Shown here in pieces: positions 8,282-23,364 of a DNA stretch of 27,251 nucleotides. The stretch is from a virus. Made by a program: the position numbers and the translations under genes. The notes beneath the pieces were generated by a model, which was not told the DNA's origin, made no database searches, and saw only the letters and a program-made list of their open reading frames with translations. Location of the stretch: positions 1 through 27,251 of IMG/VR virus record IMGVR_UViG_3300020176_000075; one strand, 5' to 3'. Every line of letters begins with the position of its first letter. Position 1 is the first letter of the stretch.

Positions 8282-8287
8282 GCCGCC

Positions 8288-10606
8288 TCAGTCGCTCAAA
8301 TTGATGTCGCCCTGCCCGTCGCGCGAGCCCGCCGCCATCTTCAATTGTTCCAATTCAGCCTCCATCACCAGCTCCCGCTCGCGGAATTGCTGATCGACGG
8401 CCATCTTCTCAACATCCAATTGATATGCCCGCTCGGCCTGGCGCTCGGCGGCCTCCAGCTTCATGCCCTCAATCGCGCGTTGCTGTTCCAACTGTTGCTG
8501 GAACTGCTGCTCTTGCATCGCCGCGTTGCGCTGAGCCTCTTGGGCTTTGATCTGCTGTTCTGCCTGGAGCCTCTGAGCGGCAAGAGCGGAATCGGCTTGT
8601 AATTTCTTCTCCGCCATGGCCGCCTCGGCTTGCATCTTCTGGCCGTCCATTTGCTGCTGCATTTGGAGCTTCTGCATCTCCATTTGCATCTTGCCCTGAG
8701 CCTCAACCACCTTCGGGTCTTGCCCCGGCGGTTGCGGCGGCATCGGGTTTTTGTCCGGGTCGGTGAAGAAAATATCAACGTCCGGCAAGTCCGCCGCCTC
8801 GACCATCTTCTCCAACGTGTTGTAATAGTTCCTCATGGTGACCAGCGGGTTTTGCATCCCCGCGACCTGTAGGATCTGCTCCTGCTTCTGAGCGATCACC
8901 ATATAGCGCTGCATCTGCTGGTCACGATTGCCGGTTCCCAAGCCAACAGACACCTTGATGTCCATATTCGCGTTCCACGAGCGCGGGTCCATCGGCACCC
9001 AATTGCCGCGAAGGCGAATGATCCGCTCTTTGTCCTGGTGCTTGGTCACGAGATGGAGCATCAACCGGGCCAGTTGCTTGAACCCCGTCTCCGCATACAC
9101 GCGCGTGATAAGTTCGGTTCGCTCGCGGCCCTGATTGCTGTCCTCGCGGACCTTTTCCGCCGTCTCCGGCTGCAATGCGTTCGGATTAAGATCCGGCCCC
9201 ATCGGGGTGACGCCCGTGCGGCGGACCAATTGGCCATCAACATATTCGAGCATCGGAAAGGCGCGCTGGCCTTCCCATGTCGTCTGGAGCGGCACGATCG
9301 CGTTCGGCCCCTTGGCGCGGATGATGGCGTCCGGCGCCTGGTTCAACACGTCGTTGAAAAACTCCGGTTCAATCTGGCTCATGTCCACGACTTTGCGCGG
9401 GAAGACGGAGTGATAAAGCCCGTCCATCATCATCCGCAGTAAGGTCGACTTCCACCGCTGGACCTCTCGCGACCCGTCCTCCATTGACAGCCCGATGCGG
9501 CGATGCGGCAGGATGATCGGCGTTAGGTCGCAGAACGGAAGCAATCCCTCGTGCTTGTCATTCTCGAAAATAACCGGAGAGTCCGGACCGTTGCCCATGA
9601 CCACTCGCCGCCATTCGGTCTCGCCGTCGCCGTCATAATCGAACTGGATATAGACCTCATAGATCCGGCACAGTTGCGCCGCCTCATCCGTGGCGTCGTT
9701 GTCGTCATCGTACTCGAGGTCGTCAAACCGCTCTTCGGTTTCCTCATACAGACTATCGTCGGCGCTCAGGCTCTCAACTTCCGTCTCGTCATATCCGCGC
9801 TTCAACAGGTCGCTCTTCGATACCCGCGTGCGCCGGGCCACCATGCGCGCATCTTCCAAAGACTTGGCGCGGCTGTTGGTCAAGAACTCTTCGGGCGCAA
9901 GAGCCTCCATCTTGATTTCGCCGCTGGTTTTGACGCGGCGGATCTTGGTGTCAAAGAGCATCGTCGGCTCTTGCATCGATATAACCCCGCCAACATCCCC
10001 CGGCATCGGCGCTTGAGGCATGCCGCCAGCATCCGGCCCCATCGGCTGCGGTGGCATTTGCGGCTCGGCGGGCATTTCAACCTCCGCCGGGTACTCTTCA
10101 ATCTCTTCAACCGTCACGCTCTCATCGTTGACGATCTCCGTCATCTCATCAATGCTAAGGCCGGTATATTCCTCGGTGACTTCGGTTTCGGATTCCTCCC
10201 ACCAGACATGAAGCACGCTGTTCTTGTAAATCAGCGGCGATTTCATCCAATCGAATATCTGCCGGAAATTGCCCTTGCGACGCATCAGCCACGAGACATA
10301 GTCCGTCGCCTGTTGCGCCGCCTCTTCGTCCTCTTCGCCTTCGGGCTCAAATCGGAACACCTGATCCGTGCCGAGAAACACCCGCACCAATGACGGCATG
10401 ACCGTTTCGACCGTCTCGTACACGTCACGGGACATGACCTTCGATCGTCCCGGGATGCTCGGCAAAGTCGATTGCTCGCCCATGTAATAACGCCAAGCGG
10501 TGGCGCGTTCGGACGACAGCTCGTCATTGTCATACCCAATAGACGAGCGCAGTTGCGACGATAACGCCGCCCTAAGCTTGCTATCGGATCGGGAAGAATC
10601 AGACAT
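8288..10606 (-). CDS. Portal protein, long P22-like type
   Basis: 772 residues from the ATG at 10606 (MSDSSRSDSKLRAALSSQLR), which overlaps the stop of the upstream AT-hook gene by 8 bases; longer in-frame starts would read through that gene. It forms the dodecameric DNA channel at one head vertex. The body has typical portal segments: 'ERATAWRYYMGEQ', 'MSRDVYETVETVMPSLVRVF', and 'SREVQRWKSTLLRMMMDGLY'. Residues about 180-212 are a Pro/Met-rich acidic insertion. Residues 629-760 are a very long Gln/Ala/Met/Glu helix, as expected for the C-terminal barrel of P22-like portals. Its length is close to the roughly 725 residues of P22 gp1. This supports a podovirus morphology. Confidence 0.88.
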   Translation of the reverse strand: MSDSSRSDSKLRAALSSQLRSSIGYDNDELSSERATAWRYYMGEQSTLPSIPGRSKVMSRDVYETVETVMPSLVRVFLGTDQVFRFEPEGEEDEEAAQQATDYVSWLMRRKGNFRQIFDWMKSPLIYKNSVLHVWWEESETEVTEEYTGLSIDEMTEIVNDESVTVEEIEEYPAEVEMPAEPQMPPQPMGPDAGGMPQAPMPGDVGGVISMQEPTMLFDTKIRRVKTSGEIKMEALAPEEFLTNSRAKSLEDARMVARRTRVSKSDLLKRGYDETEVESLSADDSLYEETEERFDDLEYDDDNDATDEAAQLCRIYEVYIQFDYDGDGETEWRRVVMGNGPDSPVIFENDKHEGLLPFCDLTPIILPHRRIGLSMEDGSREVQRWKSTLLRMMMDGLYHSVFPRKVVDMSQIEPEFFNDVLNQAPDAIIRAKGPNAIVPLQTTWEGQRAFPMLEYVDGQLVRRTGVTPMGPDLNPNALQPETAEKVREDSNQGRERTELITRVYAETGFKQLARLMLHLVTKHQDKERIIRLRGNWVPMDPRSWNANMDIKVSVGLGTGNRDQQMQRYMVIAQKQEQILQVAGMQNPLVTMRNYYNTLEKMVEAADLPDVDIFFTDPDKNPMPPQPPGQDPKVVEAQGKMQMEMQKLQMQQQMDGQKMQAEAAMAEKKLQADSALAAQRLQAEQQIKAQEAQRNAAMQEQQFQQQLEQQRAIEGMKLEAAERQAERAYQLDVEKMAVDQQFRERELVMEAELEQLKMAAGSRDGQGDINLSD

Positions 10607-10805
10607 TGGCGATCTTTCTCGGGCGCCCGCGCTTGCGGGGCATGATTTCAACGACCGCCCCAGAAACATCGGCTGGCCGCGTTTCCAGATCCTCGACGCG
10701 CTCTTCGAGAGCGGCAGACTTCGCACGGAGATCCGAGATCAGATCAAGCGCAGCCGTGAGGGATTGATCCAGCCGCGCAACGCGGACAGCTAGTGCTTGA
10801 GACAT
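10599..10805 (-). CDS. Small coiled-coil protein with AT-hook-like tail
   Basis: 68 residues. Residues about 5-45 form a predicted coiled coil (LDQSLTAALDLISDLRAKSA). The C-terminus carries PRKRGRPRKIA, a classic AT-hook (GRP core flanked by basic residues) that binds the minor groove of AT-rich DNA. GAGG precedes the ATG by 6 bases and its stop overlaps the portal start by 8 bases. Placement between TerL and portal suggests a packaging accessory role, which is inference only. Confidence 0.72.
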   Translation of the reverse strand: MSQALAVRVARLDQSLTAALDLISDLRAKSAALEERVEDLETRPADVSGAVVEIMPRKRGRPRKIANV

Positions 10806-10830
10806 TTACAACCTCTTTGGGATGGGGGCG

Positions 10831-12252
10831 TTACTCGACCCAGCTTGTATTGACGTTGATGGGCTTGTGCGGCGCGGGCTTCGTCCTGGCCTTGCGCTTC
10901 ATCATCACCGCGTACCTGGTCGCATCCATCAGATCATCGCGTTCCTTGACGATCTTGCCGTCCTTGCGATGATAGATACGGAACTCTTCCCACCACTCAT
11001 TGAGGTGAGCGAACACCTTAAACCGCCCCGTTTCCATCCTTTCCAGGATCTCCATGAGGCCGGCCTCGACGGATACGCCGCCGTCATCGAATTGCGCTCT
11101 ATCAGACAGCATCTTCAGCCCGTGACCACGATACTGCTCGACAAGCGGCGTTGCGCCGTCCCTGCCGTGGCTCCCAGCGTCCGAAGGCCAGGCCACGGGC
11201 ATCCAATCACCCTTGGCCTTGATCGTCGCCGCGTGCATCGCCGGGACGGCCTCGCTCTTGCGGTAGGCGTCCGTGACGTAGATCGTGTCCGTGTCCTTGT
11301 CCCATGCCAGCCAAACGGCGGTTGTCGGGTGATTCCAGCCCAAATCCATGCCCACGATGCGCGCCCAATGCGGCGGGATCGGACACGGCGCGATGGTGAT
11401 TTCTTCTTCCGAGATCGGATAGACGCGACCCGAGCCCATGATCGGCGTGCCCTTGGTCCGCGCTTCGCGTTCGTGCTTTGGGTAGCTGGCGATAATCTTC
11501 TCACGCTGTTCCGGCGAGTAGTGCTCGGCGTCCTCGATGGTCATCTGAGTAACCGAGCGGTCAGGGTTTTCCTCCATCAAAAACCTCACCACAACATCGG
11601 ACATGCCTTTGAGCGGCGTGAACGTCATCCAAATCGGCCCTTGCGTCGTATTCGTGCGCGTCAGCCCCTCGGTGAAGATGTCAATCGGCGGCTCTTCATC
11701 AAACCAGCAAAAGTCGAGCGTTTCGCCCTGGAACTTCTCCCGCCCCTGATTGTACGACTTCAGCGTTAATTGGCTTTCATCGCCCGACACATGACGAACC
11801 TTGATGACGCCCTTCAAACCTGGCGTGCCGAGAGCGGAATCAGCGCTGATCACATCCGCCTGCGGGATCGCCCCCGTCCCCCAGGGCTCAACGCGGCCCA
11901 ACAGCAACCGTTGGATGGTGTCGCGGACGACCTCGCCCGTCTCTCCCGCCGCCCAGCCAATCACAGGCTTTTTGAAACGTTTGCCTTCCCACCAATCCGG
12001 GTACTTCCCAGTCAGGTGCATCGCGCACTCGAAAGCCCCCGCCCAGGACTTCCCGAGCTGGTTGCCCGCCATGAACAGCCGCTCGCGGACCGTCTCGTGG
12101 TGAAAATCTTTCTGCTTGGAATAAGGCCGGTATCGGGCGAGAAGGTTAGTGTCGAGTCGCCTCTTCCGTTCCGTTTGCAGCCGCGCCAGTTCCACCAAGA
12201 GCGGAGTCAACGGCGTCCCGGAGTTCTCCGATCCGCTCGATAAGCTCGGCAT
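10831..12252 (-). CDS. terL: Terminase large subunit
   Basis: 473 residues. The ATPase and nuclease motor packages DNA through the portal. Walker A is AGNQLGKS (62-69), Walker B is CWFDEEP (182-188), the coupling motif MTFTPLKG lies at 209-216, and the RNase H-like nuclease begins at GMDLGWNHPT (301-310) with Asp303 as a likely metal ligand. Late acidic residues appear in ERDDLMDATRYAVMM. The ATG at 12252 overlaps the TerS-like gene by 107 bases, which is large. An in-frame GTG at 12195 (…VELARLQTERKRRLD) would shorten the overlap, but neither start has a strong Shine-Dalgarno. Confidence 0.93.
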   Translation of the reverse strand: MPSLSSGSENSGTPLTPLLVELARLQTERKRRLDTNLLARYRPYSKQKDFHHETVRERLFMAGNQLGKSWAGAFECAMHLTGKYPDWWEGKRFKKPVIGWAAGETGEVVRDTIQRLLLGRVEPWGTGAIPQADVISADSALGTPGLKGVIKVRHVSGDESQLTLKSYNQGREKFQGETLDFCWFDEEPPIDIFTEGLTRTNTTQGPIWMTFTPLKGMSDVVVRFLMEENPDRSVTQMTIEDAEHYSPEQREKIIASYPKHEREARTKGTPIMGSGRVYPISEEEITIAPCPIPPHWARIVGMDLGWNHPTTAVWLAWDKDTDTIYVTDAYRKSEAVPAMHAATIKAKGDWMPVAWPSDAGSHGRDGATPLVEQYRGHGLKMLSDRAQFDDGGVSVEAGLMEILERMETGRFKVFAHLNEWWEEFRIYHRKDGKIVKERDDLMDATRYAVMMKRKARTKPAPHKPINVNTSWVE

Positions 12253-12541
12253 CGGTCAGCTCTTCCAACGGGTTGATTGTGACATTGAGATCCTTCGGCA
12301 AGATGCTGGCCAAGACCTTGACGTAAGCAACGGGGCTGTCCTGGCGGCATTTGACGATCGCGTCGGCGCCATGCTCGTTGAAGTCCTCGTGAAGCGCCTC
12401 CAAGAACGCCTCGCCTAGCTTGTTGCGAACGCCTTTGCCGCGCCCCCGAGGGTTGCCGGATTGGCCGGGCTTGAACTGATGAGCCTCCATCGCTTTTGGA
12501 AGCTGCCTTTTGGCTGTACCCGCAGGTTTACGCCCAGCCAT
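12146..12541 (-). CDS. DUF5681-like protein, probable terminase small subunit
   Basis: 131 residues. The N-terminus FKPGQSGNPRGRGKGVRNKL is the hallmark of the DUF5681 family, commonly encoded just upstream of large terminases and thought to recognise the packaging site. The middle is helical (LGEAFLEALHEDFNEHGADA) and the C-terminus acidic, then Gly/Ala-rich. It overlaps the upstream gene by 14 bases and the large terminase downstream. Family recognition is firm; the TerS role is from position. Confidence 0.8.
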   Translation of the reverse strand: MAGRKPAGTAKRQLPKAMEAHQFKPGQSGNPRGRGKGVRNKLGEAFLEALHEDFNEHGADAIVKCRQDSPVAYVKVLASILPKDLNVTINPLEELTDAELIERIGELRDAVDSALGGTGAAANGTEEATRH

Positions 12542-12725
12542 GAAAGACCACCGTCACGGTTGCGTCGTAGCGATTTGACGTGTCGTCGGGCGGGGCGAAG
12601 GACACGGACTTACACCGGCGAACCTGCCGGCCAGTCTCGACGATCCTCGCGCGCATCCAAACCGGGAGATCGAAAAAGTCGCGGGCAAGTTTATCAATTT
12701 CGTCACCGTCCCACGCATCAACCAT
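12528..12725 (-). CDS. Small conserved-looking protein of unknown function
   Basis: 65 residues from the ATG at 12725 (MVDAWDGDEIDKLARDFFDL), chosen because it overlaps the upstream stop by only 8 bases; an upstream in-frame start would run through that gene. It has an aromatic/acidic helix followed by a VRRCKSVSFAPPDD strand-like segment. No family recognised. It belongs to the packaging cluster by coupling on both sides. Confidence 0.6.
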   Translation of the reverse strand: MVDAWDGDEIDKLARDFFDLPVWMRARIVETGRQVRRCKSVSFAPPDDTSNRYDATVTVVFHGWA

Positions 12726-12969
12726 CAGACGCTTCGACCTTCTTCCGGCTCCGGCGCTTCGTCGGTGCGTGTTCCTCGACCACTCCCAGCGCTTGGCGGT
12801 CGACGGCCTCGATGGAGATGGGTTGGCTTCCACCATTCGCCCGGCATCCATAGTGACGGTAGCTTGTGGCGTCGATTGCGGCCTCCAGGACTTGTCGCTC
12901 GGATAGGGCGCCCTTGAGGATCAGCGGCTCGTCGTCGGCGCGCTCAATATACGTTACTTGGGAAAGCAT
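12718..12969 (-). CDS. Small protein with basic C-terminus, unknown
   Basis: 83 residues from the ATG at 12969 (MLSQVTYIERADDEPLILKG). AAGGAAGC lies just upstream and supports this start over the one at 12984. The N-terminal half is acidic and mixed. The C-terminus is basic (TKRRSRKKVE), suggesting nucleic-acid contact. No family recognised. Confidence 0.6.
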   Translation of the reverse strand: MLSQVTYIERADDEPLILKGALSERQVLEAAIDATSYRHYGCRANGGSQPISIEAVDRQALGVVEEHAPTKRRSRKKVEASDG

Positions 12970-13013
12970 GTTGCTTCCTTTCAAACGATTGAAGTCTTGG
13001 GCTTACCAACCCC

Positions 13014-13244
13014 TCACTCACCCGCGATCTTCGCGCGATATTCTTCGACCAGCGCCTCGGTGCGAGGGTGCCCGATGTACTCCAGGGCCATTTGGTTCAT
13101 CCCGATATCGTGCTCGACGCAAAGTGGCATCCACAGGTTACCGGTCGCGCAACACTGCCATTGAAATTCGCCTCGATTCTCGCAGCCGGAAACGCAGCAC
13201 TTGAGACGCCGGATGCCGATTTGCGTGTATGGCTTTCGGCGCAT
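13014..13244 (-). CDS. Small Cys-rich, probable zinc-binding phage protein
   Basis: 76 residues with cysteines spaced as CCVSGC at 16-21, a CC pair near 31-32 and C near 42, followed by H (LCVEHDIGMNQM). This looks like a structural zinc site. Proteins of this layout recur in alphaproteobacterial phages (recognised, not searched). GAGGTGAGGG precedes the ATG. It lies in the late operon between tRNA-Gly and the terminase genes. Confidence 0.68.
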   Translation of the reverse strand: MRRKPYTQIGIRRLKCCVSGCENRGEFQWQCCATGNLWMPLCVEHDIGMNQMALEYIGHPRTEALVEEYRAKIAGE

Positions 13245-13247
13245 CCC

Positions 13248-13412
13248 TCACCTCACCAATGCCGTTAGATGACCGAGCCGCCGCCATTGATATCTCTTGC
13301 GCCCTCGATACCGCTTCGTTCCGTGCCGTTCATGTCGCTCTCCATATCCCTCACGCCTGGTTGACGGTGGACCTTGTTTAAGATCCCAGGCGCTTGGACT
13401 GCTCCGGGTCAT
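13248..13412 (-). CDS. Possible small basic protein
   Basis: 54 residues from the ATG at 13412 (MTRSSPSAWDLKQGPPSTRR), rich in Arg, Gly and Tyr. Its ATG overlaps the stop of the 47-residue gene upstream (ATGA), and its stop lies 3 bases before the next ATG, so it tiles the strand exactly. There is no recognisable family and no independent Shine-Dalgarno. Reality rests on the coupling. Confidence 0.42.
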   Translation of the reverse strand: MTRSSPSAWDLKQGPPSTRREGYGERHERHGTKRYRGRKRYQWRRLGHLTALVR

Positions 13413-13552
13413 TCCGGGGCGAGTCTCGATGTTGCGTTTCGCTTGTGCGTGCCCCGCAGGATCTCCCGAAGGCGCTTCGTCGCCGGGACTCGCCGGAGCT
13501 TCCTGCACATTTTTACCGACACGTTATCCCGCCTCGCGAGCTTGAGCGTCAC
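13409..13552 (-). CDS. Very small basic protein with GTG start
   Basis: 47 residues from a GTG at 13552, preceded by a perfect GGAGG with 6-base spacing. The protein is highly basic (VTLKLARRDNVSVKMCRKLR, then RVPATKRLREILRG), consistent with nucleic-acid binding. Its stop overlaps the following ATG (ATGA). Third positions are GC-rich, as in neighbouring real genes. Function unknown. Confidence 0.55.
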   Translation of the reverse strand: MTLKLARRDNVSVKMCRKLRRVPATKRLREILRGTHKRNATSRLAPE

Positions 13553-13641
13553 AAAACGCCTCCATCATGTCGGTTGATTGAATTCACGATCGCAGACCCG
13601 GAGGGTTGGCGTACTCGCCGCTTTACCCTGACCGAAGCCAC
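13549..13641 (-). CDS. Low-confidence micro-ORF ahead of the 47-residue gene
   Basis: A 30-residue frame from a GTG at 13641 (VASVRVKRRVRQPSGSAIVN) whose TGA overlaps the GTG of the next gene (GTGA). GAGG lies 10 bases upstream, which is far. The frame stays open upstream for about 45 more codons without a good start. The coupling makes it worth listing. Otherwise 13553-13703 holds nothing I can support. Confidence 0.22.
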   Translation of the reverse strand: MASVRVKRRVRQPSGSAIVNSINRHDGGVL

Positions 13642-13703
13642 CCGGACAGATCCTCGCAAAGGCTGGCTAACCTTGATCGCAATCGTGAAACTGGTCCGAG
13701 TGG

Positions 13704-13994
13704 CTATCCGTTTGCTTCCCGCCGATCGAGGAAAGTGCCTTCCAACGCGAGCGCCGGATTTTTCTTTGCGTTGATTTCACTTAGCGCGAGATTGCCGCCC
13801 TGGCGCCGCACGGCTTCGCTCTTCTCGGTCCACCCCAACTCTCTCGCCCGCTTTTCTCGTGATATTTTTTTCGCCTTGCACTCGATAGAAAACCTTTGCT
13901 TGGGTTTGGCATTGAATGGTCGACGGCGGACCAATCGAGACCATTCAGGGTTATCTTTTTTTGTGTCTTTGGGCCAAACATTGTGGACTTGCAT
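13704..13994 (-). CDS. Basic protein of unknown function next to tRNA-Gly
   Basis: 96 residues from the ATG at 13994, with GGAGG 4 bases upstream; the frame extends further upstream only through the tRNA, so this start is clear. The sequence is Lys/Arg-rich (RLVRRRPFNAKPKQRFSIEC, KAKKISREKRARELGW) with a helix-loop look. No family recognised. It begins 24 bases after the 3' end of the tRNA, so the tRNA may be cut from the late transcript upstream of it. Confidence 0.62.
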   Translation of the reverse strand: MQVHNVWPKDTKKDNPEWSRLVRRRPFNAKPKQRFSIECKAKKISREKRARELGWTEKSEAVRRQGGNLALSEINAKKNPALALEGTFLDRREANG

Positions 13995-14018
13995 GAGTCC
14001 TCCATTATGCCGGTTGTC

Positions 14019-14092
14019 TGGAGCGTCCCGTCGGATTCGAACCGACGATCGCGGGGTGGAAACCCACTGCCTTACCGCTTGGTTAGAAACGC
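14019..14092 (-). tRNA. tRNA-Gly (anticodon UCC), CCA encoded
   Basis: A 74-base cloverleaf. The 7-bp acceptor GCGTTTC/GGGACGC has two G.U pairs. The anticodon stem GTGGG/CCCGC has loop TTTCCAC, giving anticodon UCC. The T-arm is GTCGG-TTCGAAT-CCGAC. The discriminator is U73, as in bacterial tRNA-Gly, followed by an encoded CCA. The D-stem has an A10-C25 mismatch, leaving two good pairs, so it is slightly degenerate. It would read GGA/GGG glycine codons. It lies in the late operon between two small genes. Confidence 0.88.
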
Positions 14093-14217
14093 TGGAATTG
14101 ATGATGCGGGCCGAGCGTTGCGCGTGGGTCGCTGGCTTCCCGGCTTCCTCTCCTATCCCACGCGCCGCCGCATCAATGACCCGGCACCAACGACGCCGGC
14201 CAGGAACATCCATACGG

Positions 14218-14472
14218 TCAATGCCGGTTGGCAGCCTTCTTGGCCCCGTACATATCGACGATCATGCAGGCCTCGGCGATGCAGTCCTGGGCGTCAAGCA
14301 AATCGTTCATCCATCCCTCTATTTCTTCTGGGATGTCTTCGCCGTATTTCTCGCTAACCCACGCCGAGGCCGCCTCAATACCCCTGTACAGCGCACCGTC
14401 CGCCGCGACGATCTCCGCATCCAGCAAGGCCACGTAGTCTGCGATCAATGCTTTGAAGAGTGGGTGTGACAT
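14218..14472 (-). CDS. Small acidic helical protein, first gene of the late operon
   Basis: 84 residues (MSHPLFKALIADYVALLDAE), acidic, predicted helical, with many Ala and Asp/Glu and two Cys near 64-69. GAGGG lies just before the ATG. It is the first gene after the late promoter and terminator. No family recognised. A holin or lysis role is unlikely, as there is no membrane segment. Confidence 0.62.
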   Translation of the reverse strand: MSHPLFKALIADYVALLDAEIVAADGALYRGIEAASAWVSEKYGEDIPEEIEGWMNDLLDAQDCIAEACMIVDMYGAKKAANRH

Positions 14473-14645
14473 TCGCCCTCACGACCAAATTAAATGATTG
14501 AGGCATCAACGGGGCGCGGCCCTCCGCCTCGATACCTTCCGCGCGGCTGGTGTGTCCGTGCCAGGACGTTTGAATTGAAGGACGGGACCGAAGCCCCGCC
14601 GGGTGGCTCCTACTACCAGGTTGCGCCTGATTCAGAGCGGGAATC

Positions 14646-14678
14646 AAAAACCCGCCGCCGATTGCTCGGGAGCGGGTT
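14646..14678 (-). terminator. Intrinsic terminator immediately after the late promoter
   Basis: Minus strand: AACCCGC / GCGGGTT outer stem (14672-14678 with 14649-14655) enclosing CCGA-GCAA-TCGG with a GNRA loop, running into TTTTTG. A T-run also follows on the plus strand (14681-14685), so it could work in both directions. It ends about 55 bases after the predicted start site of the promoter at 14710-14739. Bases 14473-14645 hold no gene I can support and form the leader before the 84-residue gene. Confidence 0.72.
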
Positions 14679-14709
14679 GATTTTTGTGTCACCACTGGAC
14701 ACTGACGAA

Positions 14710-14739
14710 AGTATGCCACTCAGCATCACGCTATGTCAA
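14710..14739 (-). promoter_or_regulatory. Candidate late promoter
   Basis: Minus strand: TTGACA (14739-14734), 18-base spacer, CATACT (14715-14710) preceded by TGG, an extended -10 TGn motif. The -35 box starts within the last codons of the DUF6456-like gene (…TTG ACA TAG). Predicted start near 14703. It points at the late genes and is followed by a terminator within about 60 bases. Confidence 0.7.
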
Positions 14740-15252
14740 CCCATAGTGTCTCGCTAATGCATCAAGCGCTAGACGTAGTACCGCGATGCCCGATTGCGGG
14801 ATGTCGCCGCGCCCTCTTGCCCAATCCGATGCGCTGCCGTCCAGCAAGGCGACGTGAACCAGGATCGGCGATAGCTCGACACCAACGGCGCGCGTGGCCT
14901 TCACATAACGAGCACTCGCCAGCGCGGCCATGTCGGACATCTCGGGATTGCCCTGCCCCGCCTGGCCATAGGTGCCGGTCACCGCCATTTGACGCCCGGC
15001 CATCTCCCAATCCGCCCGCAGCTTTAGCGCCGCGTCCGATTGCTTGACCGTGATTTGCTTCTTGTGCCGGTAGCGGTCGATCATGGACACCGTGATCACC
15101 CTCGCGCCCTTCACGCCGGCCTGAATGGTTTCGCGCCTCTCGATTACGTCGCCATGCTGATAGCGCTCTTTCGGCCCGACATCGGCCAATGCGAGAGCGG
15201 GCGGGCGATCGGCTTTGTTTTTCTGCTTTTGCTTCGCGGACTTCCTGCCCAT
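14731..15252 (-). CDS. DUF6456-like protein, candidate late regulator
   Basis: 173 residues. The N-terminus is Lys/Gln-rich (MGRKSAKQKQKNKADRPPAL). The middle has helices with HKKQITVKQSDAALKLRADW. The C-terminus 'SGIAVLRLALDALARHYGL' matches the conserved end of the DUF6456 family of alphaproteobacteria (W/S-x-VLRLALDxLAxHYG). It is the last early gene; a promoter and terminator follow directly. The position equals that of lambda Q, so an antiterminator or late activator role is proposed by context only. It has no similarity to Q that I can see. Confidence 0.68.
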   Translation of the reverse strand: MGRKSAKQKQKNKADRPPALALADVGPKERYQHGDVIERRETIQAGVKGARVITVSMIDRYRHKKQITVKQSDAALKLRADWEMAGRQMAVTGTYGQAGQGNPEMSDMAALASARYVKATRAVGVELSPILVHVALLDGSASDWARGRGDIPQSGIAVLRLALDALARHYGLT

Positions 15253-15256
15253 ATCG

Positions 15257-15532
15257 CTATTCCTCCTCCGCTATCCGATTGTTTCGTGAGTCGACTTGCG
15301 CCTGTGCCGCGCGGATGAATTCCGCAGGCGCGGCGAGCCGCTGGTCCAGCATCCACCCGTCGCGGCCCTTCCATGCTCGTATCGGACCGAGGACGCTCAC
15401 AGCCTTCTGAAAAGCCGTCTTCGGCTTCGCTATCCCATCAGCCTCGGCAAGGGTGCAGCCATAGGCCCGGGTGATGCTGAATTCGTGGCGGAACCAGCAA
15501 TCCGGGACAGCGAAGGTTGGGAGCTTGGTCAT
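15257..15532 (-). CDS. Small protein of unknown function
   Basis: 91 residues (MTKLPTFAVPDCWFRHEFSI). Its ATG overlaps the stop of the cytosine methyltransferase (ATGA at 15529-15532), implying coupling. It has mixed charge with an aromatic WKGRDGWMLDQRL element. No family recognised. Its stop lies 4 bases before the next ATG. Confidence 0.65.
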   Translation of the reverse strand: MTKLPTFAVPDCWFRHEFSITRAYGCTLAEADGIAKPKTAFQKAVSVLGPIRAWKGRDGWMLDQRLAAPAEFIRAAQAQVDSRNNRIAEEE

Positions 15533-16920
15533 TCGGCGGCCTCCGCTATAAGGTCGAGGCTATCCACCGTCGCGATGCGCTCACCAATCCAACGGACCAC
15601 CGGCACCGCCATGCTGTTTCCAAGGGCCTTGTATCGATTGCCGTCCGCCGCTGGCTTTCCGCGATAGGTGATGGCGGTATAGCCTCGCGGAAATCCTTGT
15701 AAAAATTCACATTCGACGGGCATTAATCGCCGGACGGCGGAGTCAATGCGAATGCCGGTCTGGCGTGAACTGGTTTCGCTCTGGGGGTGCGCTTGAATTG
15801 CCCTGAGCGTCGGGGCTATGTCTGCTGCATCCCCGCCGTCGTCCTTGCACGAAAAGGCGACCATTGGGGCCGAACCGCTCGCCCGGTCAGCGTTTGTGCC
15901 GATCGTTCCACTGATCTCGCCGACATCGAGGTTTGATCCACGTGTCTGAAAAGCAACAGCGTGCTGCGCGCCCGCCTGCAGGGTGAACACGGCTTGCCCT
16001 CGTTCGGAAACCGTGAACGCTGGGTCACCTGGATTCCCCACGCCATGGCCGGGAGCCCCACCGCTACCTCCTTCAGCGCGGTTATTGGTTATCTTCTCGC
16101 CGCGACTGGCTTGGCGAAGGTCGATGGGAATGATCGGCGTTCCGCGCCCGGTCCCATCCTCCGATGCGTCGCAGCCATCCCCGCGCAGGGTGTGGGTGAC
16201 AAGCGTTTCGCATTTCGCATTAATGCGTCCAGAGCCGCCATGGGCATTTAGACACATCGCAACGACGGGGTCTTGGCCTCGGCTCTCTCCGGCGCGCTCT
16301 ACGCCGTGGCCACTCGCTGTAAAACTTGGTGCAGTTGGGGCGGCAACCTCTTCCCCCGCTTCTCGGCTCGGCGGAGGATGCCCTGACAGGCTTTCCGGCT
16401 CAAAAAGTACCGCCGCGGCACGTCTCCAGTCTCCAAGATATCCGACAACGAACACGCGCTTCCGTCGCTGGGCCAAGCCGAAATATTGAGCGTCAAGGAC
16501 TCTGTAGGACCACCCATACCCGAGTTCGCCCAGCGCCCCGAGGAAGGCTCCAAAATCCCTTCCTCCGTTCGATGACAGGACGCCGGGCACGTTCTCCCAG
16601 ACCATCCAACGGGGCCGATAGCGGTCAGCAATGGCAAGATATGTGAGGGCGAGGTTACCACGCGGATCATCCAATCCCTTTCGGAGTCCGGCGACGCTGA
16701 AGGACTGGCAGGGGGTTCCTCCAACGAGAACATTGATGTCTGCATCGGGCCACTCCTTGAATTTGGTCATATCGCCCCAATTCGGGACATCGGGGTAGTG
16801 GTGAGTAAGGACGGCGGACGGGAACGGCTCGATTTCGGAGCAAGCGACGAAGTTCCAGCCGAGCGGAGTCCATGCCGCTTCAGGCGCACCTATTCCAGAA
16901 CAGACGGACAGGACGTTCAT
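15529..16920 (-). CDS. C5-cytosine DNA methyltransferase
   Basis: 463 residues. Methylates cytosine C5 with SAM. Motif I (VCSGIGAPE, 6-14), PCQS with catalytic Cys71 (70-73), ENV (109-111), QRRKR (151-155), then a long target-recognition region (about 165-395) rich in Gly, and finally RRLMPVECEFLQGFP and YKALGNSMAVPVVRWIG (motifs IX and X). All key residues are present. No restriction partner adjoins it. It is probably an orphan phage enzyme protecting against host restriction. Its ATG overlaps the previous stop (ATGA). Target sequence unknown. Confidence 0.92.
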   Translation of the reverse strand: MNVLSVCSGIGAPEAAWTPLGWNFVACSEIEPFPSAVLTHHYPDVPNWGDMTKFKEWPDADINVLVGGTPCQSFSVAGLRKGLDDPRGNLALTYLAIADRYRPRWMVWENVPGVLSSNGGRDFGAFLGALGELGYGWSYRVLDAQYFGLAQRRKRVFVVGYLGDWRRAAAVLFEPESLSGHPPPSREAGEEVAAPTAPSFTASGHGVERAGESRGQDPVVAMCLNAHGGSGRINAKCETLVTHTLRGDGCDASEDGTGRGTPIIPIDLRQASRGEKITNNRAEGGSGGAPGHGVGNPGDPAFTVSERGQAVFTLQAGAQHAVAFQTRGSNLDVGEISGTIGTNADRASGSAPMVAFSCKDDGGDAADIAPTLRAIQAHPQSETSSRQTGIRIDSAVRRLMPVECEFLQGFPRGYTAITYRGKPAADGNRYKALGNSMAVPVVRWIGERIATVDSLDLIAEAAE

Positions 16921-17504
16921 TCAGCGGCCCTCATGGCGCCGCCCTTCATCGCCTTGGTCCGCGCCACCATGCCATCGGACATCGCACGCAATCGCTCGCC
17001 GATCTCACGCACCTCCGCCGCCTTGGCCGGGGCGCGTTCCTGACGCTGCCGTTCCAAGGCCTGTTCATGCGCCGCTTTCCCACGGGCGGCTTTCAGGCGG
17101 GATAGCGTATGGCGGCGGGCAGAAAACTCGCTGGCGACCTGATCCCGGATCGTCGCTGGACGGGGGAAAAACTCGCAACTCTTCGTCACCTTCGCCATCG
17201 CGGACCGCAGCAGGTCAATCGGCAAATCCGACAACGCATGGACGTAGAGCGGCATGGCGTCTTGCAGGTTCAATTCTTTCGGAGGCGTCCACATCACCAG
17301 CGTCTTGCCGAGAACAACCGCGACATCCTCCGGTTTAGCCGGGGCCAGCATTCGCTCGACAACGGCAATAGCTCCGTCCACGTCGTCAAGCGACACCGGC
17401 ACCGATTGGTCGGCCTTCCACACCGCCAACCACGAAGGCGCTTGCCAAACCTCGTCTGATCGCGTCTCCAGAACCCCCGCCGCCCGAGCTACCGCCTGCG
17501 CCAT
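16917..17504 (-). CDS. Candidate helicase-loader-like replication partner
   Basis: 195 residues from the ATG at 17504, which has GGAGGG 5 bases upstream; this decides the start. The segment 'AMPLYVHALSDLPIDLLRSA' followed by 'CEFFPRPATIRDQVASEF' resembles phage replication proteins of the P / G40P-loader style, in which this pattern precedes a charged helix (here RLKAARGKAAHEQALERQRQ). The position directly after the replication initiator matches lambda O-P order. The overlap with the initiator's last 39 codons is 119 bases and out of frame. Function by motif and position only. Confidence 0.55.
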   Translation of the reverse strand: MAQAVARAAGVLETRSDEVWQAPSWLAVWKADQSVPVSLDDVDGAIAVVERMLAPAKPEDVAVVLGKTLVMWTPPKELNLQDAMPLYVHALSDLPIDLLRSAMAKVTKSCEFFPRPATIRDQVASEFSARRHTLSRLKAARGKAAHEQALERQRQERAPAKAAEVREIGERLRAMSDGMVARTKAMKGGAMRAAE

Positions 17505-18237
17505 AAGAACCCTCCATGATTTTCGTGAAACTCTTCGCTTGAAGGACGAAATCAAAGTCCGCCTTCCACCCTCGGTCGTTATGGCCAAGCAGGAACGGCG
17601 ATCCTCGGATGTTCTTGATCGCGGTTCGCCAGCCATCGATGCCGCCGCATTCCGCCAGCCTTGCCGTCAGAGCCTTTCGCCGCGTCGGATTGAGCAACTG
17701 CGCTTTCGCCAGCCCAACCTCGCTTGCCAAGTCGTTAAAGGCTCGGAAAGCCAGATCGATATCCGGATCGGCATCGGGGCGGGCCGGCGCGGTCACGCGC
17801 CCTTCCTCCTTCCCTTCCTTTCCCTTCCCTTCTATTTCCCTTCCCTTCCCTTCCCCACGTGCGGGTACTGGATTTGCACGTGCGGGTACTGGATCGGCAT
17901 CGGTTAGGTCGGGTATTTTGCTCTGCTGTTCACGGACGTTCACATGCTGATGCTCGGAAAAGGACGGTATCCAGCCATATTCTTCACCGTTCACGGCGTA
18001 TCGTTGAACGAACCCGGCACCGGACAAAGCATCGAGAAGCGCCGCAAAGTCCACTTCGTCATATGGCAGCACGTCGAGCTTGATGGTTCGGGGACGCCAT
18101 TTGAATCGGCCCTCCCGATCGGCAACCGTCCAAAGCCCAGCGAATGCCAAGCGGACCGGAAAGCCGGTTTCTTGCTCAAGATCGAACAACTCTTCATGGG
18201 AGAAGAATTCCGGCTTTATTGAACGGATGCGCGCCAT
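17386..18237 (-). CDS. Phage replication initiator (O-like), DnaD/replisome organiser type
   Basis: 283 residues. The N-terminal winged-helix-like domain (1-100; MARIRSIKPEFFSHEELFDL, then LAFAGLWTVADREGRFKWRP) is typical of phage initiators. A low-complexity linker (about 110-155) contains PVPARAN/PVPARGE repeats and a Gly/Lys/Glu tract. The C-terminal domain (155-245) has the DnaD/DnaT-like 'WRTAIKNIRGSPFLLGHNDR' and 'GWKADFDFVLQAKSFTKIMEG'. The last ~38 residues are a Gly/Ser extension overlapping the next gene, probably non-homologous. The linker DNA carries direct repeats and a polypurine tract, a candidate origin. It begins 2 bases from the previous stop. Confidence 0.8.
   Translation of the reverse strand: MARIRSIKPEFFSHEELFDLEQETGFPVRLAFAGLWTVADREGRFKWRPRTIKLDVLPYDEVDFAALLDALSGAGFVQRYAVNGEEYGWIPSFSEHQHVNVREQQSKIPDLTDADPVPARANPVPARGEGKGREIEGKGKEGKEEGRVTAPARPDADPDIDLAFRAFNDLASEVGLAKAQLLNPTRRKALTARLAECGGIDGWRTAIKNIRGSPFLLGHNDRGWKADFDFVLQAKSFTKIMEGSYGAGGSSGGGGSGDAIRRGLASAFVVGGVEGRPIGAGVA
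17800..17894. other. Candidate replication origin: polypurine/polypyrimidine tract plus direct repeats
   Basis: The plus strand 17800-17856 is 57 bases of pyrimidine with a single purine (A at 17834), built from repeated ccctt units. Two identical 18-bp copies of cacgtgcgggtactggat adjoin it (17856-17873 and 17877-17894; 21-bp period). Both lie within the initiator gene linker, as lambda's iterons lie in gene O. The repeats are in the coding frame (PVPAR twice), so protein-level explanations remain. Confidence 0.45.
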
Positions 18238-18238
18238 G

Positions 18239-18688
18239 CTACCCCCTCGCCGCTAGGTCTGCGGACGATGCCGTGGGGATGTGAGTGCTGGCATGCCACA
18301 TGCGGCCATGCGTCTCGCGCGGATCGGGCTCTACGTTGTCTCGACCAAAGCCGCGCCCCCAATCAAAGTCCACCGGGGCTTTCTTGACGCCTCGGTCATT
18401 AAGCCCTGCAATGCCGCCTATTATTTTCGGCTTTAGGGCCTTCTTGGCTTTCAAATAACCAGTGACCTGGCCGTGCGTGAATTTGAGACTGGCGGCGATA
18501 TCGGTTGGCCGCTCGCCTTTTTGGTAGCGCCGGATGATGTCCTTGCCGTGAACCGCGATCCTCGCGTCATTAAGGATTTTGCAAATTAAAGCCCGCCGTA
18601 ACCCCCAAGCTTTGCTCAGTGCAACGGGCGACGCACCGGCTTTATATGCGGCAACGATTTCAGCGTCTCTTTTGTCTCGATCAAACAT
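18239..18688 (-). CDS. HTH DNA-binding protein
   Basis: 149 residues from the ATG at 18688 (MFDRDKRDAEIVAAYKAGAS), with GGAG 7 bases upstream; an ATG at 18706 would overlap the previous gene. Two helix-turn-helix-like stretches are seen: EIVAAYKAGASPVALSKAWG near 10-30 and IIRRYQKGERPTDIAASLKF near 52-71. They resemble resolvase/Hin-type recognition helices. The C-terminus is polar and Gly-rich. A regulatory or replication-accessory role is likely. It sits one gene before the replication initiator. Confidence 0.65.
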   Translation of the reverse strand: MFDRDKRDAEIVAAYKAGASPVALSKAWGLRRALICKILNDARIAVHGKDIIRRYQKGERPTDIAASLKFTHGQVTGYLKAKKALKPKIIGGIAGLNDRGVKKAPVDFDWGRGFGRDNVEPDPRETHGRMWHASTHIPTASSADLAARG

Positions 18689-18689
18689 C

Positions 18690-18923
18690 TCAAATCTCCA
18701 CTTCATGAAGCATTCGGGTTCCCTCGGTCGCGAAGGCTAGCCAAGCGTCTCGCTTGCCATGGAGCATGTCCGCGCCCCGTTGCTGGCCCGGTTCCGCGCG
18801 GTCATAAGCTCGCCATGCCGCCGTGATCCCGTCCTCGTATGCTTGGAGTGCGGCGGTTCGCAGTGTGAGCGGCTGCCGGGCGTCCAGTTCTTCTATGGAC
18901 GGGAGGTGGATGACTTGGCCCAT
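18690..18923 (-). CDS. Small unknown early protein
   Basis: 77 residues (MGQVIHLPSIEELDARQPLT), helical with Ala/Trp/Arg (AAWRAYDRAEPGQQ). It starts 4 bases after the DUF1064 stop, with GGGAG upstream. No family recognised. Confidence 0.62.
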   Translation of the reverse strand: MGQVIHLPSIEELDARQPLTLRTAALQAYEDGITAAWRAYDRAEPGQQRGADMLHGKRDAWLAFATEGTRMLHEVEI

Positions 18924-18926
18924 CCG

Positions 18927-19304
18927 TCACGTCTCCCGTATGTCGATGTCGTATTCGGCCTTCATCCACTTGCGCTTGAGCCGGTAGATGTCGGTCTTCG
19001 TGGCGTTGCCGCCCTTCACGTCCTCGACGATGTATCGATTGCCTTCGAGATAGGTGAAGTCGGCCTTGTACGACGCGATCTTGTCGCCGGCCTTGCCGTG
19101 CAGGGGAAACGGGACCTGGCGTCGTAAGTCGGTGATCTCTCCGGCTTGCTGCCGGGCTTTGAGAACCAGCCAGCGCTTGGACTCCTTCACGCTGTCAAAC
19201 CAGATACCGTCGACCTGGACGCGGCGGTTGTTGTACTTGGCGCGCTTTTTGGGCACACCGATCCCGAGCGCGGCGGCGTCCCGTTCTGTGATCACCGCCG
19301 CCAT
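18927..19304 (-). CDS. DUF1064 family PD-(D/E)XK-like phage nuclease
   Basis: 125 residues. The layout matches DUF1064 proteins of lambdoid-type phages, predicted Holliday-junction or recombination nucleases. FDSVKESKRW (36-45) gives the first acidic residue Glu41, YKADF (79-83) gives Asp82, and VEDVKG (93-98) gives the E-x-K pair Glu94/Lys97. A basic N-terminus KKRAKYNNRRV precedes the fold. It starts 2 bases after the ParB-like stop. Activity is unproven for most members. Confidence 0.75.
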   Translation of the reverse strand: MAAVITERDAAALGIGVPKKRAKYNNRRVQVDGIWFDSVKESKRWLVLKARQQAGEITDLRRQVPFPLHGKAGDKIASYKADFTYLEGNRYIVEDVKGGNATKTDIYRLKRKWMKAEYDIDIRET

Positions 19305-19306
19305 GC

Positions 19307-20140
19307 CTAACCCCGGCCCGCGCTTGTGTTGTCAAAGACGGAAACGCCGGTCAGACGGGCAATCGCATCGCCAAGCGCTTTCATGCCGCCGCTGTAGCAA
19401 TTGGACTTAAGAACATCCCATTGCTCGCCTGGGACGTAATCGATGATTTGTGCGGCGACCCTTTCAACCGCTTCAATCTTCAGGTCATTTGTTTCGGCGG
19501 CTAAGGCGCGTTTTGATGCGCCGGACATGCGGGCCGAAACCCGTTCACCCGCCTGAGCTTTGGCGATGATATCCTCGCGATCCGGCTCATCCATCTTGGC
19601 CAGGGCGTCTAGCTCAACGCCTTTGTCGAGGGATGTCCCGGCCACCCGCTCAACGTCTGGAATGGCTTCGGCGCGGGCGACCTTGCGGTTGATGTCTTGT
19701 TTGGATTGCCCGGTTTTAACGGCGGTTTCAGATGCAAACTCCGTTTTGCCGCGCCCTCCTAAACTGGAACAATTTGTTCCACTATTCGCCCGCGCCTCAA
19801 AAAGCTCCTTCCGCCTCGCGAGGTGCGCCGCCTCTTCCGCTGGCGACAGCCCCGCGCGCATCAGGTTCTCGTCAATCTCCCATAGCTCGCGGTCGATTTC
19901 GTCCATGTCCACGAAAAAGCATGGAACTTCATCCCAGCCCAAGGACTCGGCGGCGGCGAGGCGATGACGCCCCGCCACCAGATAGGCCTCTGTCGGATCT
20001 GGCGACCAAACGTGAATCGGGTTTTGAAGCCCGATTTCGCGCATGGATTCAGCGAGTGCGCCAACGCGATCCTTAACCAAGGCGCGATGGCGCTCGCCGA
20101 CGACAAGGCTATCTATGTAGACTTCGCCGAGACGCATCAT
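19307..20140 (-). CDS. ParB/Srx-fold nuclease-domain protein
   Basis: 277 residues. The N-terminal ParB-like domain (about 5-85) has 'LAESMREIGLQNPIHVWSPD' and 'AYLVAGRHRLAAAESLGWDE', the conserved GRHRL being the active or CTP-binding signature. A DRELWEIDENLMRAGLSPAEE element and then a KTEFASETAVKTGQSKQDIN HTH-like region follow. Its ATG overlaps the upstream stop. Phage proteins of this type are thought to act as nucleases or regulators rather than in partition. It is one of two ParB-like genes in tandem. Confidence 0.78.
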   Translation of the reverse strand: MMRLGEVYIDSLVVGERHRALVKDRVGALAESMREIGLQNPIHVWSPDPTEAYLVAGRHRLAAAESLGWDEVPCFFVDMDEIDRELWEIDENLMRAGLSPAEEAAHLARRKELFEARANSGTNCSSLGGRGKTEFASETAVKTGQSKQDINRKVARAEAIPDVERVAGTSLDKGVELDALAKMDEPDREDIIAKAQAGERVSARMSGASKRALAAETNDLKIEAVERVAAQIIDYVPGEQWDVLKSNCYSGGMKALGDAIARLTGVSVFDNTSAGRG

Positions 20141-21036
20141 TTGGCCCTCGGCAACGGGCCGCCGTCAAATTCAAACCGAGCGGCTTTCCGATTTTGCCGC
20201 GCCGCATTCCACGCTTGAATGATGTAAGCGAAGATGTTGCGCGGTATGATTTTTTCGCCATTCGAGCGGGTCAGCTTTTCCCGCAGTTTAAAAGCGGGGT
20301 CCGACCTACTCGTAAAACCAATGCCGTTGGCGACTTTTTCAAAAAACGCATCCGCTTCAGCACGGTTTTTGCCAGCACAGATATAGTGCGCCGCCAAGGC
20401 AACGGTCGGATTGGGCAGACTGTTCCGGCCCCACCAGTCCAAGACGACCCGGCTTTTTTGAAGATCGGCGAGCTGAAGATAATAATTGTAGAGGTCGGCG
20501 TTGGTAAGGCGGTTTGAGGCATGCCCTCCCGAGTTGCCCGTTCCAGCGGCAAACCCGCTATTGTACAGGTATATCCACTTTGTCGCGGCTGACATCCCGC
20601 TATAATTCGGCACGCCGTTAATGGCAAAGACATCGCTCCCCGTCCGCCTTCGCCCCGTGTCGATCTTATCAAACACCTCATCGACCACGCCGAATGCCAC
20701 CATGGCCTCAACCGCGCACCCGGACTCAACGATCGCCGAAAGGCGGTGTTGGCCGTCAATCAAGCGCCCCTTGTTGGAGAACATGATCGGGCTCGGCGCG
20801 AACATCCACGCCCCCCGTTTCATTTCAGCGGCGAGATTGCTGACGTGTCCCTTCGAGAGCGGCCTGTTGGAGGTGTTGTACTCCATCATCGCGCTGGCGA
20901 TTTCAGAAGTAATAATCATCTTGACGGGGTCGACGGGCGCACTGTCCACCAGCCAAGCAATTTTTTTCGGCGCGGCGGTCTTAGTGTTCGCCGCCGAAAG
21001 TCGCGGCTCTTGTTCACGCGAAAAGACATTAAGCAT
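20137..21036 (-). CDS. DGQHR/ParB-like phage protein
   Basis: 299 residues. The core motif 'KGRLIDGQHRLSAIVESGCA' (about 89-108) is the DGQHR signature of ParB-like domains in phages and plasmids. 'SEIASAMMEYNTSNRPLSKG' and 'HVSNLAAEMKRGAW' precede it as expected. The C-terminal two thirds are helical. It starts after a 164-base gap containing two inverted repeats. GGGAG precedes the ATG by 7 bases. Molecular role unknown; a nuclease or DNA-binding function is possible. Confidence 0.72.
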   Translation of the reverse strand: MLNVFSREQEPRLSAANTKTAAPKKIAWLVDSAPVDPVKMIITSEIASAMMEYNTSNRPLSKGHVSNLAAEMKRGAWMFAPSPIMFSNKGRLIDGQHRLSAIVESGCAVEAMVAFGVVDEVFDKIDTGRRRTGSDVFAINGVPNYSGMSAATKWIYLYNSGFAAGTGNSGGHASNRLTNADLYNYYLQLADLQKSRVVLDWWGRNSLPNPTVALAAHYICAGKNRAEADAFFEKVANGIGFTSRSDPAFKLREKLTRSNGEKIIPRNIFAYIIQAWNAARQNRKAARFEFDGGPLPRAK

Positions 21037-21074
21037 TCGTACTCTCCCGTTGTTATGGTGTTTGCACCCGAAAG

Positions 21075-21137
21075 CCCCGACGCCATCACACGTTCGGGGT
21101 GGGGAAAATCCCCCTGGTGACGACGTGCCACCAGGGG
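21075..21137. other. Two inverted repeats in the early-operon gap
   Basis: The 21037-21200 gap holds a perfect 9-bp inverted repeat CCCCTGGTG/CACCAGGGG (21111-21119 and 21129-21137), followed on the minus strand by GATTTTCC, and a 6-bp repeat CCCCGA/TCGGGG (21075-21080, 21094-21099). The first resembles a weak leftward terminator; the second could form an alternative hairpin. No clear promoter for the downstream gene is visible. This is the only sizeable gap in the early operon. Confidence 0.55.
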
Positions 21138-21200
21138 AGTTACAGGGAGGAAACGTGCGACGCTTCGGCCATGGGGATAGCCGCCCCGCGTCGCCGGGGA

Positions 21201-21893
21201 TTACGTGATCTCCAGTTGCATTGAGTCTTGGGTTGGCTTGGGGGTGGGGTCGGCGAATAGGCGGGGCTGTCTCAGCGCCTCACGCATCCGCTCGCAAGCA
21301 ATGTCGAAATACGTCTCGTCAATCTCTATGCCGATGAACTTGCGGCCTAGATTGAGCGCGGCAACGCCAGTGGTGCCGCTGCCCATTGTTGGGTCACAAA
21401 CCGTGCCTCTGGTCCAACCAATCACTTGCTCTAGAAGCGCCACTGGTTTTTGAGTTGGATGCAGTAAATTGTCGGTCCGCGTGGCGTAGACCACATCTGC
21501 CGGCCTGCCCTGCGGAAAGTCATGAAGGTCCCCCGGCCAAAAACACATCCCCTCGGTCTGACGCGCGTGTTCGTGATGTAAATCACCCATCGACCAGTTG
21601 TTTTTCACCCAGGTAATGAAACTCCTGGGGCTAACCGTGGTGCCAAGATTGTTCCATCGGCAGAACACGTACTTGGAATGTTTAACCGGGAGCCCGCAAA
21701 CCCAGTCAAACAACTCAACGTCTGAATCGCCTTCAATTCGTGCATGCGCCACTTGGCGGTAGGCCGATTTAAACGCCATGCCGAATGGAGGGTCGGCGAC
21801 CACCACGTCAAGATCACCAAGCGTGGGGACGATTTCTCGGGCGTCGCCGAGAAGCAGTCGGGCAGCCCCAATGGTAACGTCAGCTTTTATCAC
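21201..21893 (-). CDS. Beta-class amino-methyltransferase (N6A or N4C)
   Basis: 230 residues from a GTG at 21893, which overlaps the HNH stop by 14 bases; a longer frame would run through that gene. The catalytic DPPF is at 34-37, HPTQKP at 145-150, and the SAM-binding DPTMGSGTTGVAA at 168-179. This order (motif IV before I) marks the beta class (CcrM-like). There is no neighbouring restriction enzyme except the HNH protein, which overlaps. Target sequence unknown. Confidence 0.87.
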   Translation of the reverse strand: MIKADVTIGAARLLLGDAREIVPTLGDLDVVVADPPFGMAFKSAYRQVAHARIEGDSDVELFDWVCGLPVKHSKYVFCRWNNLGTTVSPRSFITWVKNNWSMGDLHHEHARQTEGMCFWPGDLHDFPQGRPADVVYATRTDNLLHPTQKPVALLEQVIGWTRGTVCDPTMGSGTTGVAALNLGRKFIGIEIDETYFDIACERMREALRQPRLFADPTPKPTQDSMQLEIT

Positions 21894-22377
21894 TGCGCGC
21901 CTCCAGCACCTCTGATCGGTGCTCGGCGATGTGGTTGGACCGCGACATCGCCTCCAGGTTTTCAATTGCGTCGTTTAGTGGGTTTCGGTCTTTGTGGTGA
22001 ACAACCCAGCCGCGCGGGACGGGACCGTGCGCGGCCTCCCAAACAACGATGGCCCGCTCTCGCCACGAGTTAGGATTCGCGATTTTTATGAATGCCCTGG
22101 GCGAGCCGTCACGGCTGCGTCTTCGTGTTCGCACCGAGCCAACTGGTAGTATTTTTTTGGACTTTTGGCCCGGCCTAAACTGCGTAGCGGGGGAAAGGTG
22201 AATTCCTTTCAATCCCTTGTTCCAGGGTGAACCGCCTTTGGTGAATTGGCCCCCAGTTGTGCCAGAGGCCTTTCGCCAGATGCGATAGCATGCCTGAGAG
22301 CAAAAACGGATCGGACGCGATCCCGCCTTGTCGCGCACAAAGTCATCCCCGCACTGTTCGCAGGTCCATTTAGCCAT
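21880..22377 (-). CDS. HNH endonuclease with N-terminal zinc ribbon
   Basis: 165 residues. Cys6-x2-Cys9 and Cys26-x3-Cys30 form a zinc ribbon. A GGQFTKGGSPWNKGLKG segment (42-58) resembles the NUMOD3-type DNA-binding repeats of homing enzymes. 'WVVHHKDRNPLNDAIENLEA' plus 'RSNHIAEH' (124-153) is the HNH core with the catalytic His pair. It overlaps the preceding small gene by 8 bases and the methyltransferase by 14. It could be a homing-type nuclease, or paired with the methyltransferase. Confidence 0.85.
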   Translation of the reverse strand: MAKWTCEQCGDDFVRDKAGSRPIRFCSQACYRIWRKASGTTGGQFTKGGSPWNKGLKGIHLSPATQFRPGQKSKKILPVGSVRTRRRSRDGSPRAFIKIANPNSWRERAIVVWEAAHGPVPRGWVVHHKDRNPLNDAIENLEAMSRSNHIAEHRSEVLEARSDKS

Positions 22378-22522
22378 TGGAGGGCTTCTCCACTTCTTGC
22401 CGTCGAGTTTCTGGGTCGCCAGGCTTCACAACGATTTCACCGCTCGCAATTTTTCGTCGGCGGATCTCGGCAATGGCCACGTCATAGGACAGGCGGGAGT
22501 CTTCGGCTTCGTCGTAAGTCAT
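22370..22522 (-). CDS. Small protein of unknown function (50 residues)
   Basis: Begins at the ATG at 22522 (MTYDEAEDSRLSYDVAIAEI), overlapping the upstream TGA (TGATG). It ends at the TAA at 22372-22370, 8 bases into the HNH gene. It is charged (RRRKIASGEIVVKPGD). The coupling at both ends supports it. No family recognised. Confidence 0.55.
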   Translation of the reverse strand: MTYDEAEDSRLSYDVAIAEIRRRKIASGEIVVKPGDPETRRQEVEKPSNG

Positions 22523-23185: not shown

Positions 23186-23364
23186 CACGCGGCCTCCTCC
23201 CGGTTCTGTAATCGCCACCGACGCAGCAATGCAATCGCCCGCGCTTTGGCTCGTTGGGTGTATTTGGCGCTGCTGGAGCCATCGGTGAGGCGGTCCCAAA
23301 CATCAAACGCCGTCACGACATCTTCCGCCGTCACGAATACGTTGCTGTTGGGGCCATCGCTCAC
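23185..23364 (-). CDS. Small unknown protein, second gene of the early operon
   Basis: 59 residues from a GTG at 23364 that overlaps the Cro-like stop (GTGA). The sequence SDGPNSNVFVTAEDVVTAFD ends in a basic helix (RAKARAIALLRRWRLQNREE). The upstream extension would run through the Cro-like gene. No family recognised. Confidence 0.6.
   Translation of the reverse strand: MSDGPNSNVFVTAEDVVTAFDVWDRLTDGSSSAKYTQRAKARAIALLRRWRLQNREEAA

Follow-up and report, generated by a model that had tools for sequence, protein, structure and literature searches.

A phage protein of the GafA/GafZ family (DUF6456) probably plays the role of Q in a late switch of the lambda Q type, encoded in a virus record of 27,251 bases (the window, meaning the whole stretch of DNA analysed). 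At the boundary between early and late genes, the DUF6456 gene is followed by a promoter match that begins inside the gene's last codons, and then by an intrinsic terminator. Both the terminator and this gene-promoter-terminator order exceed what chance would give.

The genes of the window run on the minus strand, with the early genes at high and the late genes at low coordinates (Table 1). The phage is described as temperate, and its portal and head families suggest that it is podovirus-like. Its early region includes a CII-like gene and, upstream of the DUF6456 gene, HNH and methyltransferase genes; by gene order, DUF6456 is the final early gene, directly before the late operon. A sequence-only reading had proposed the main elements of this layout, and they are borne out: a DUF6456-like last early gene (PF20057, E 4.6e-13, 49.9 bits against a cut-off of 26.3); a TTGACA-N18-CATACT promoter with an extended TG at the end of that gene; a terminator with a GNRA loop (here GCAA) about 25-55 bases past the start; and late genes beyond it, since those for the terminase large subunit (TerL), portal, scaffold and major head protein all lie downstream.

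Table 1. Features of the window, in order of transcription (positions of the whole stretch).
Feature	Position	Strand	Remarks
CII-like	22522-22992	-	early gene
Replication initiation	17386-18237	-	early gene
C5-methylase	15529-16920	-	early gene
DUF6456 / GafZ-type gene, 173 aa	14731-15252	-	PF20057; last early gene
Proposed late promoter	14739-14710	-	TTGACA (14739-14734), N18, CATACT (14715-14710)
GCTGAGTG, candidate loading site	14717-14724	-	just upstream of -10; common to L157 promoter, same register
Inverted repeat GTGTC-N7-GACAC	14686-14702	-	start of predicted transcript; predicted hairpin
Intrinsic terminator (tR'-like)	14644-14678	-	stem, GCAA loop, then U-run
Second hairpin CGGGGC-UUCG-GUCCCG	14583-14598	-	late leader
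tRNA-Gly (UCC)	14019-14092	-	ARAGORN, Rfam; late leader
TerL	10831-12252	-	phrog_2 + phrog_5653; downstream late gene
Portal protein	8288-10726	-	phrog_1216, E 1.5e-137; downstream late gene
Scaffold	1158-2243	-	downstream late gene
Major head protein	154-1125	-	phrog_1328, E 9e-105; downstream late gene

The -35 hexamer is embedded in the reading frame (GGG TTG ACA TAG), the TG stands one base before the -10, and the transcript is predicted to start near 14703. Counted from that start, the terminator stem covers roughly +26 to +55, with the U-run at +56 to +60 (hairpin AACCCGC-T-CCGA(GCAA)UCGG-C-GCGGGUU at 14678-14649; U-run 14648-14644). Its predicted fold is worth -20.2 kcal/mol (z -4.19), and 0 of 200 shuffles were as stable. 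A nearly identical hairpin lies between two structural genes of an unrelated phage (L216:3100-3145, minus strand), so the hairpin sequence itself is generic, and the idea that it is specific to this phage was rejected. In the late leader, the pairing of the second hairpin is maintained in two aligned relatives (L003, L009) despite base changes. Another locus, L014, carries a tRNA-Leu-like sequence right after its DUF6456 gene (about 902-987).

A sigma-70-like scan of positions 8000-27251 returned 8 sites, against 6.7 +/- 2.7 in shuffled sequence. Because promoter-like sites are no commoner than in shuffles, the promoter match by itself proves nothing, and the gene-promoter-terminator order was therefore tested in related genes; comparison with other DUF6456 loci supports the position of the promoter.

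DUF6456 is the GafA/GafZ family. The literature links the name to gafA, whose product regulates the Rhodobacter gene transfer agent by activating it (PMC9638019). Caulobacter has the protein in two parts, GafY (DnaA-like) and GafZ. GafZ is reported to be an antiterminator that loads between the -10 and -35, accompanies RNA polymerase, NusA, NusG and NusE, and reads through both its own terminator and rrnB T1; Tran and Le drew the comparison with lambda Q (PMC11150451). According to published work, GafZ resembles the solved Q and AlpA proteins neither in sequence nor in structure.

An alignment of 15 phage-type sequences matches the cellular type from the same genomes (phage-type against GafZ-type profiles, hhalign probability 99.2, E 2.6e-19). 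These cellular genes are of the gafZ type, because their neighbourhood matches that published for gafYZ: a DnaA_C (DnaA C-domain) gene precedes DUF6456 in three loci (L108, L114, L116), and sufE lies downstream in L108. All 15 phage-type members match DUF6456 in Pfam, the sole family common to them; their Pfam results contain no match to a Q family (those of lambda Q being PF03589 and PF06530), and no sequence relatives of solved structure were found.

The phage-type proteins lack the N-terminal region of about 150 residues found in GafZ. In the window's protein of 173 residues the DUF6456 match starts at residue 67; in the cellular proteins of the same three loci (271-327 residues) it starts at residue 124-156. 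The counterpart of the missing region in GafA binds the omega subunit of RNA polymerase (PMC9638019). Nor was a gafY-like partner found beside the window's gene, whose neighbour (15257-15532) has no Pfam match. By analogy, the short phage form may act like GafZ without either the N-terminal region or gafY.

Since bacterial GafZ is a published antiterminator, the phage DUF6456 protein is most likely the phage version of a Q-like switch. In lambda and phage 21, Q is the last early gene, the promoter pR' adjoins it, tR' is close by, and the late genes lie beyond. The window shares each of these features: the factor as last early gene, an adjoining constitutive-looking promoter, a near terminator, and the late genes past it. 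The lambda Q protein, however, is unrelated in sequence to DUF6456.

This suggests the following model. Host RNA polymerase would initiate near 14703, from the promoter that overlaps the end of the DUF6456 gene, and in the absence of DUF6456 protein would stop about 60 nt on, at the terminator near 14645. As the early operon builds up DUF6456 protein, the protein would load onto polymerase at or just past the promoter, and would then ride it through the terminator and the entire late operon; the loading of GafZ between -10 and -35, and the likeness of the C-terminal half of DUF6456 to sigma region 4, are in keeping with this. What the sequences show is the family of the gene, the order of the elements, the promoter match, the terminator, their recurrence elsewhere and the gene exchange described below; promoter activity, a loading site and antitermination by the window's own protein are what we infer from the known systems.

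The closest of these on family grounds is Caulobacter GafZ (PMC9632790, PMC11150451), which shares with the window the DUF6456/PF20057 domain, control of a phage-like late cluster (proposed for the phage), and a terminator downstream of the start, with GafZ loading between -35 and -10. The phage protein, in contrast, is about half as long, has no adjacent gafY, and is encoded directly before the late operon, whereas gafYZ is remote from its cluster and the Caulobacter terminator follows the first gene. GafA of Rhodobacter capsulatus shares DUF6456 as its C-terminal region, but is a three-part protein with a DnaA-like N-terminus and an omega-binding centre, and is described as an activator (PMC9638019). 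Of the lambda Q / pR'-tR' interpretation first offered for this DNA, the arrangement is borne out and the role it assigns to the protein is the best supported; its expectation that DUF6456 would gain a function has been overtaken, because the family already includes the activator GafA (PMC9638019) and the antiterminator GafZ (PMC11150451).

How general is the arrangement? A PF20057 search of 289 genomes, from the class to which the host of L103 belongs (a Hyphomicrobiaceae MAG), separated strong matches of the gafA/gafZ type from weak ones of the phage type. In 13 phage-type loci of a first set, a same-strand TerL (seven phrog_2, five PF03237, and L157 by Pfam) lies 0.4-4 kb downstream; a second set, which came from two orders, has it so placed at 0.6-7 kb in all 18 loci with TerL within 10 kb on the same contig. 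Phage-type DUF6456 is thus upstream of same-strand TerL in 31 of 32 alphaproteobacterial loci with a TerL no more than 10 kb away, a count in which loci are partly non-independent and from which those without TerL on the contig were excluded. The single exception, L199, is a weak match with TerL on the opposite strand. Two other weak matches (L158, L161) are actually ECF sigma factors and were rejected as family members, and L159 was dropped as marginal. A tblastn search with four query sequences found DUF6456 in no named isolate phage.

Promoter-terminator pairs were then scored by one rule: a hairpin of -14 kcal/mol or lower with a T-rich tail, a promoter score of at least 6, and 0-110 nt from -10 to stem. 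Such pairs follow 6 of 41 DUF6456 stops, among them the window that prompted the test, as against 3 of 277 other gene ends taken from these loci as controls (Fisher p=2e-4); two of these three control matches (L150:5739, L195:5163) fall between DUF6456 and TerL. In the second set the pairs follow 3 of 32 DUF6456 ends (p=0.016), with weak promoters. The divergent prophage locus L157 repeats the window's layout: DUF6456, TTGACA-N17-TACATT, a terminator 27 nt on, HNH, TerL and portal. By eye, L205, L202, L198/L156, L195 and L197 are similar. At many loci, several of them directly before TerL, neither promoter nor terminator is visible. The order is therefore recurrent but not universal, and the earlier idea of a promoter and terminator "always" standing after a DUF6456 gene gives way to a clear pattern in a minority (6/41 and 3/32). 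Promoter-then-terminator pairs also occur between DUF6456 and TerL at L150:5760-5880 and L195:5350-5440.

The strongest evidence for a late switch, in our view, comes from an exchange of genes. In a sister phage whose TerL is 98% identical to the window's (L009), the DUF6456 gene and its promoter are replaced by a NusG/RfaH-like gene (L009:6785-7432), encoding a protein of 215 residues with NusG (PF02357, E 1.8e-9) and KOW domains. DNA identity between the two phages breaks upstream and returns within the terminator stem (window 14675-14551 against L009 7570-7695, 94% identity); the changed left arm of the L009 stem still pairs in the predicted fold. A possible promoter there, TTGACG-N17-TAGGAT, again has its -35 within the last codons. 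Another six relatives, whose TerL is about 60% identical (L018, L020-L024), carry a NusG paralogue upstream of TerL, with TTGAAA-N17-TAGATT in its last codons. Across that element seven codons are identical in all six, as against 25 of 83 conserved-residue codons elsewhere, a comparison made after the element had been seen. These relatives also share a conserved leader of about 130 nt, in which hairpin pairing survives a G-C to A-U change.

Specialised members of the NusG family are elongation and antitermination factors. Those of rhizobial phages (phiLM21 gp34, RHph_N28_2) are annotated as antitermination factors and correspond to the occupant of this slot in the window's relatives; they belong to the NGN/KOW family, unrelated to DUF6456. 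It is this exchange of elongation-factor families beside an unchanged terminator that argues most directly for a late-switch function. One other relative (L019) has neither NusG nor DUF6456; its DUF1367 gene (PF07105; 2099-2641), some 2.6 kb ahead of TerL, may be a further occupant of the slot.

Because GafA is reported as an activator, activation without antitermination has to be considered as the chief alternative. DUF6456 would then bind a late promoter and recruit RNA polymerase, and the terminator would merely close the early operon or insulate the late one. GafA is described as acting through omega (PMC9638019), many phage-type loci have no terminator after the DUF6456 gene, and the C-terminal half of DUF6456 resembles sigma region 4: in two ECF sigma factors, the residues that match sigma region 4 are also those that match positions 68-135 of the DUF6456 profile, in line with the sigma-like helix-turn-helix published for GafZ. 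Yet the window already has a strong promoter match ahead of the terminator, GafZ lets polymerase pass terminators, rrnB T1 among them (PMC11150451), and the replacement factor in L009 and its relatives is of the NusG family, in which the specialised members serve in elongation and antitermination. We consider simple activation unlikely.

Less probable still is that the promoter-terminator pair is unconnected with the DUF6456 protein, its product being either a short regulatory RNA or the leader with tRNA-Gly. The predicted product is indeed short and structured, the tRNA gene lies about 0.55 kb downstream, and L014 has its tRNA-Leu-like sequence after DUF6456; against this, unrelated DUF6456 genes that immediately precede packaging genes are followed by the same order, and in L009 the terminator persists where the upstream gene has been swapped for another of antitermination type. 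It is very improbable that the promoter match is fortuitous, with the terminator closing off the early operon and late transcription truly starting from a promoter further downstream: the scan excess is nil and a gene-terminator order is ordinary, but the full order is enriched after DUF6456 genes, and a -35 within the last early gene or right at its end occurs also in L014 (TTGACG) and in the NusG-type relatives with their seven identical codons.

Returning to the Q-like switch, a wider proposition can be put forward, one that we favour somewhat less firmly. Phage-type DUF6456 proteins may be a widespread third kind of Q, acting as late antiterminators in alphaproteobacterial phages, exchangeable with NusG/RfaH-like factors as a cassette (the factor gene plus its promoter), and the ancestral source of the gene transfer agent regulators GafZ and GafA. 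Q-type switches and GafZ antitermination in gene transfer agents are each already known separately; a literature search that took in few subscription papers did not turn up DUF6456 proteins in the role of late switches of phages. If the proposition is true, phage DUF6456 genes acquire a function, and many alphaproteobacterial phages acquire a late switch. It would also suggest that a gene transfer agent regulator is a domesticated phage Q, and whether GafZ arose from a Q-like gene of a phage becomes a testable question. The NusG-like swap amid late genes that are otherwise 98% identical provides a natural experiment, in which two unrelated proteins can be compared directly at one terminator.

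Where might the protein load? An element just upstream of the -10, GCTGAGTG, is common to the window and L157 only. Its sharing has P of about 7e-4 for this pair, and about 0.05 allowing for all pairs, which makes it a lead as a loading element. No GafZ-like palindrome stands out between the -35 and -10 of the window's promoter, and such a palindrome was rejected as a family-wide loading site after showing no significance in 13 promoters.

Finally, in the order to which genome G437 belongs (loci L225-L250), 28 of 33 genomes contain a DUF6456 gene of the phage type, in most cases next to TerL. Such near-ubiquity suggests that these genomes share a phage-like element, which may have been domesticated.
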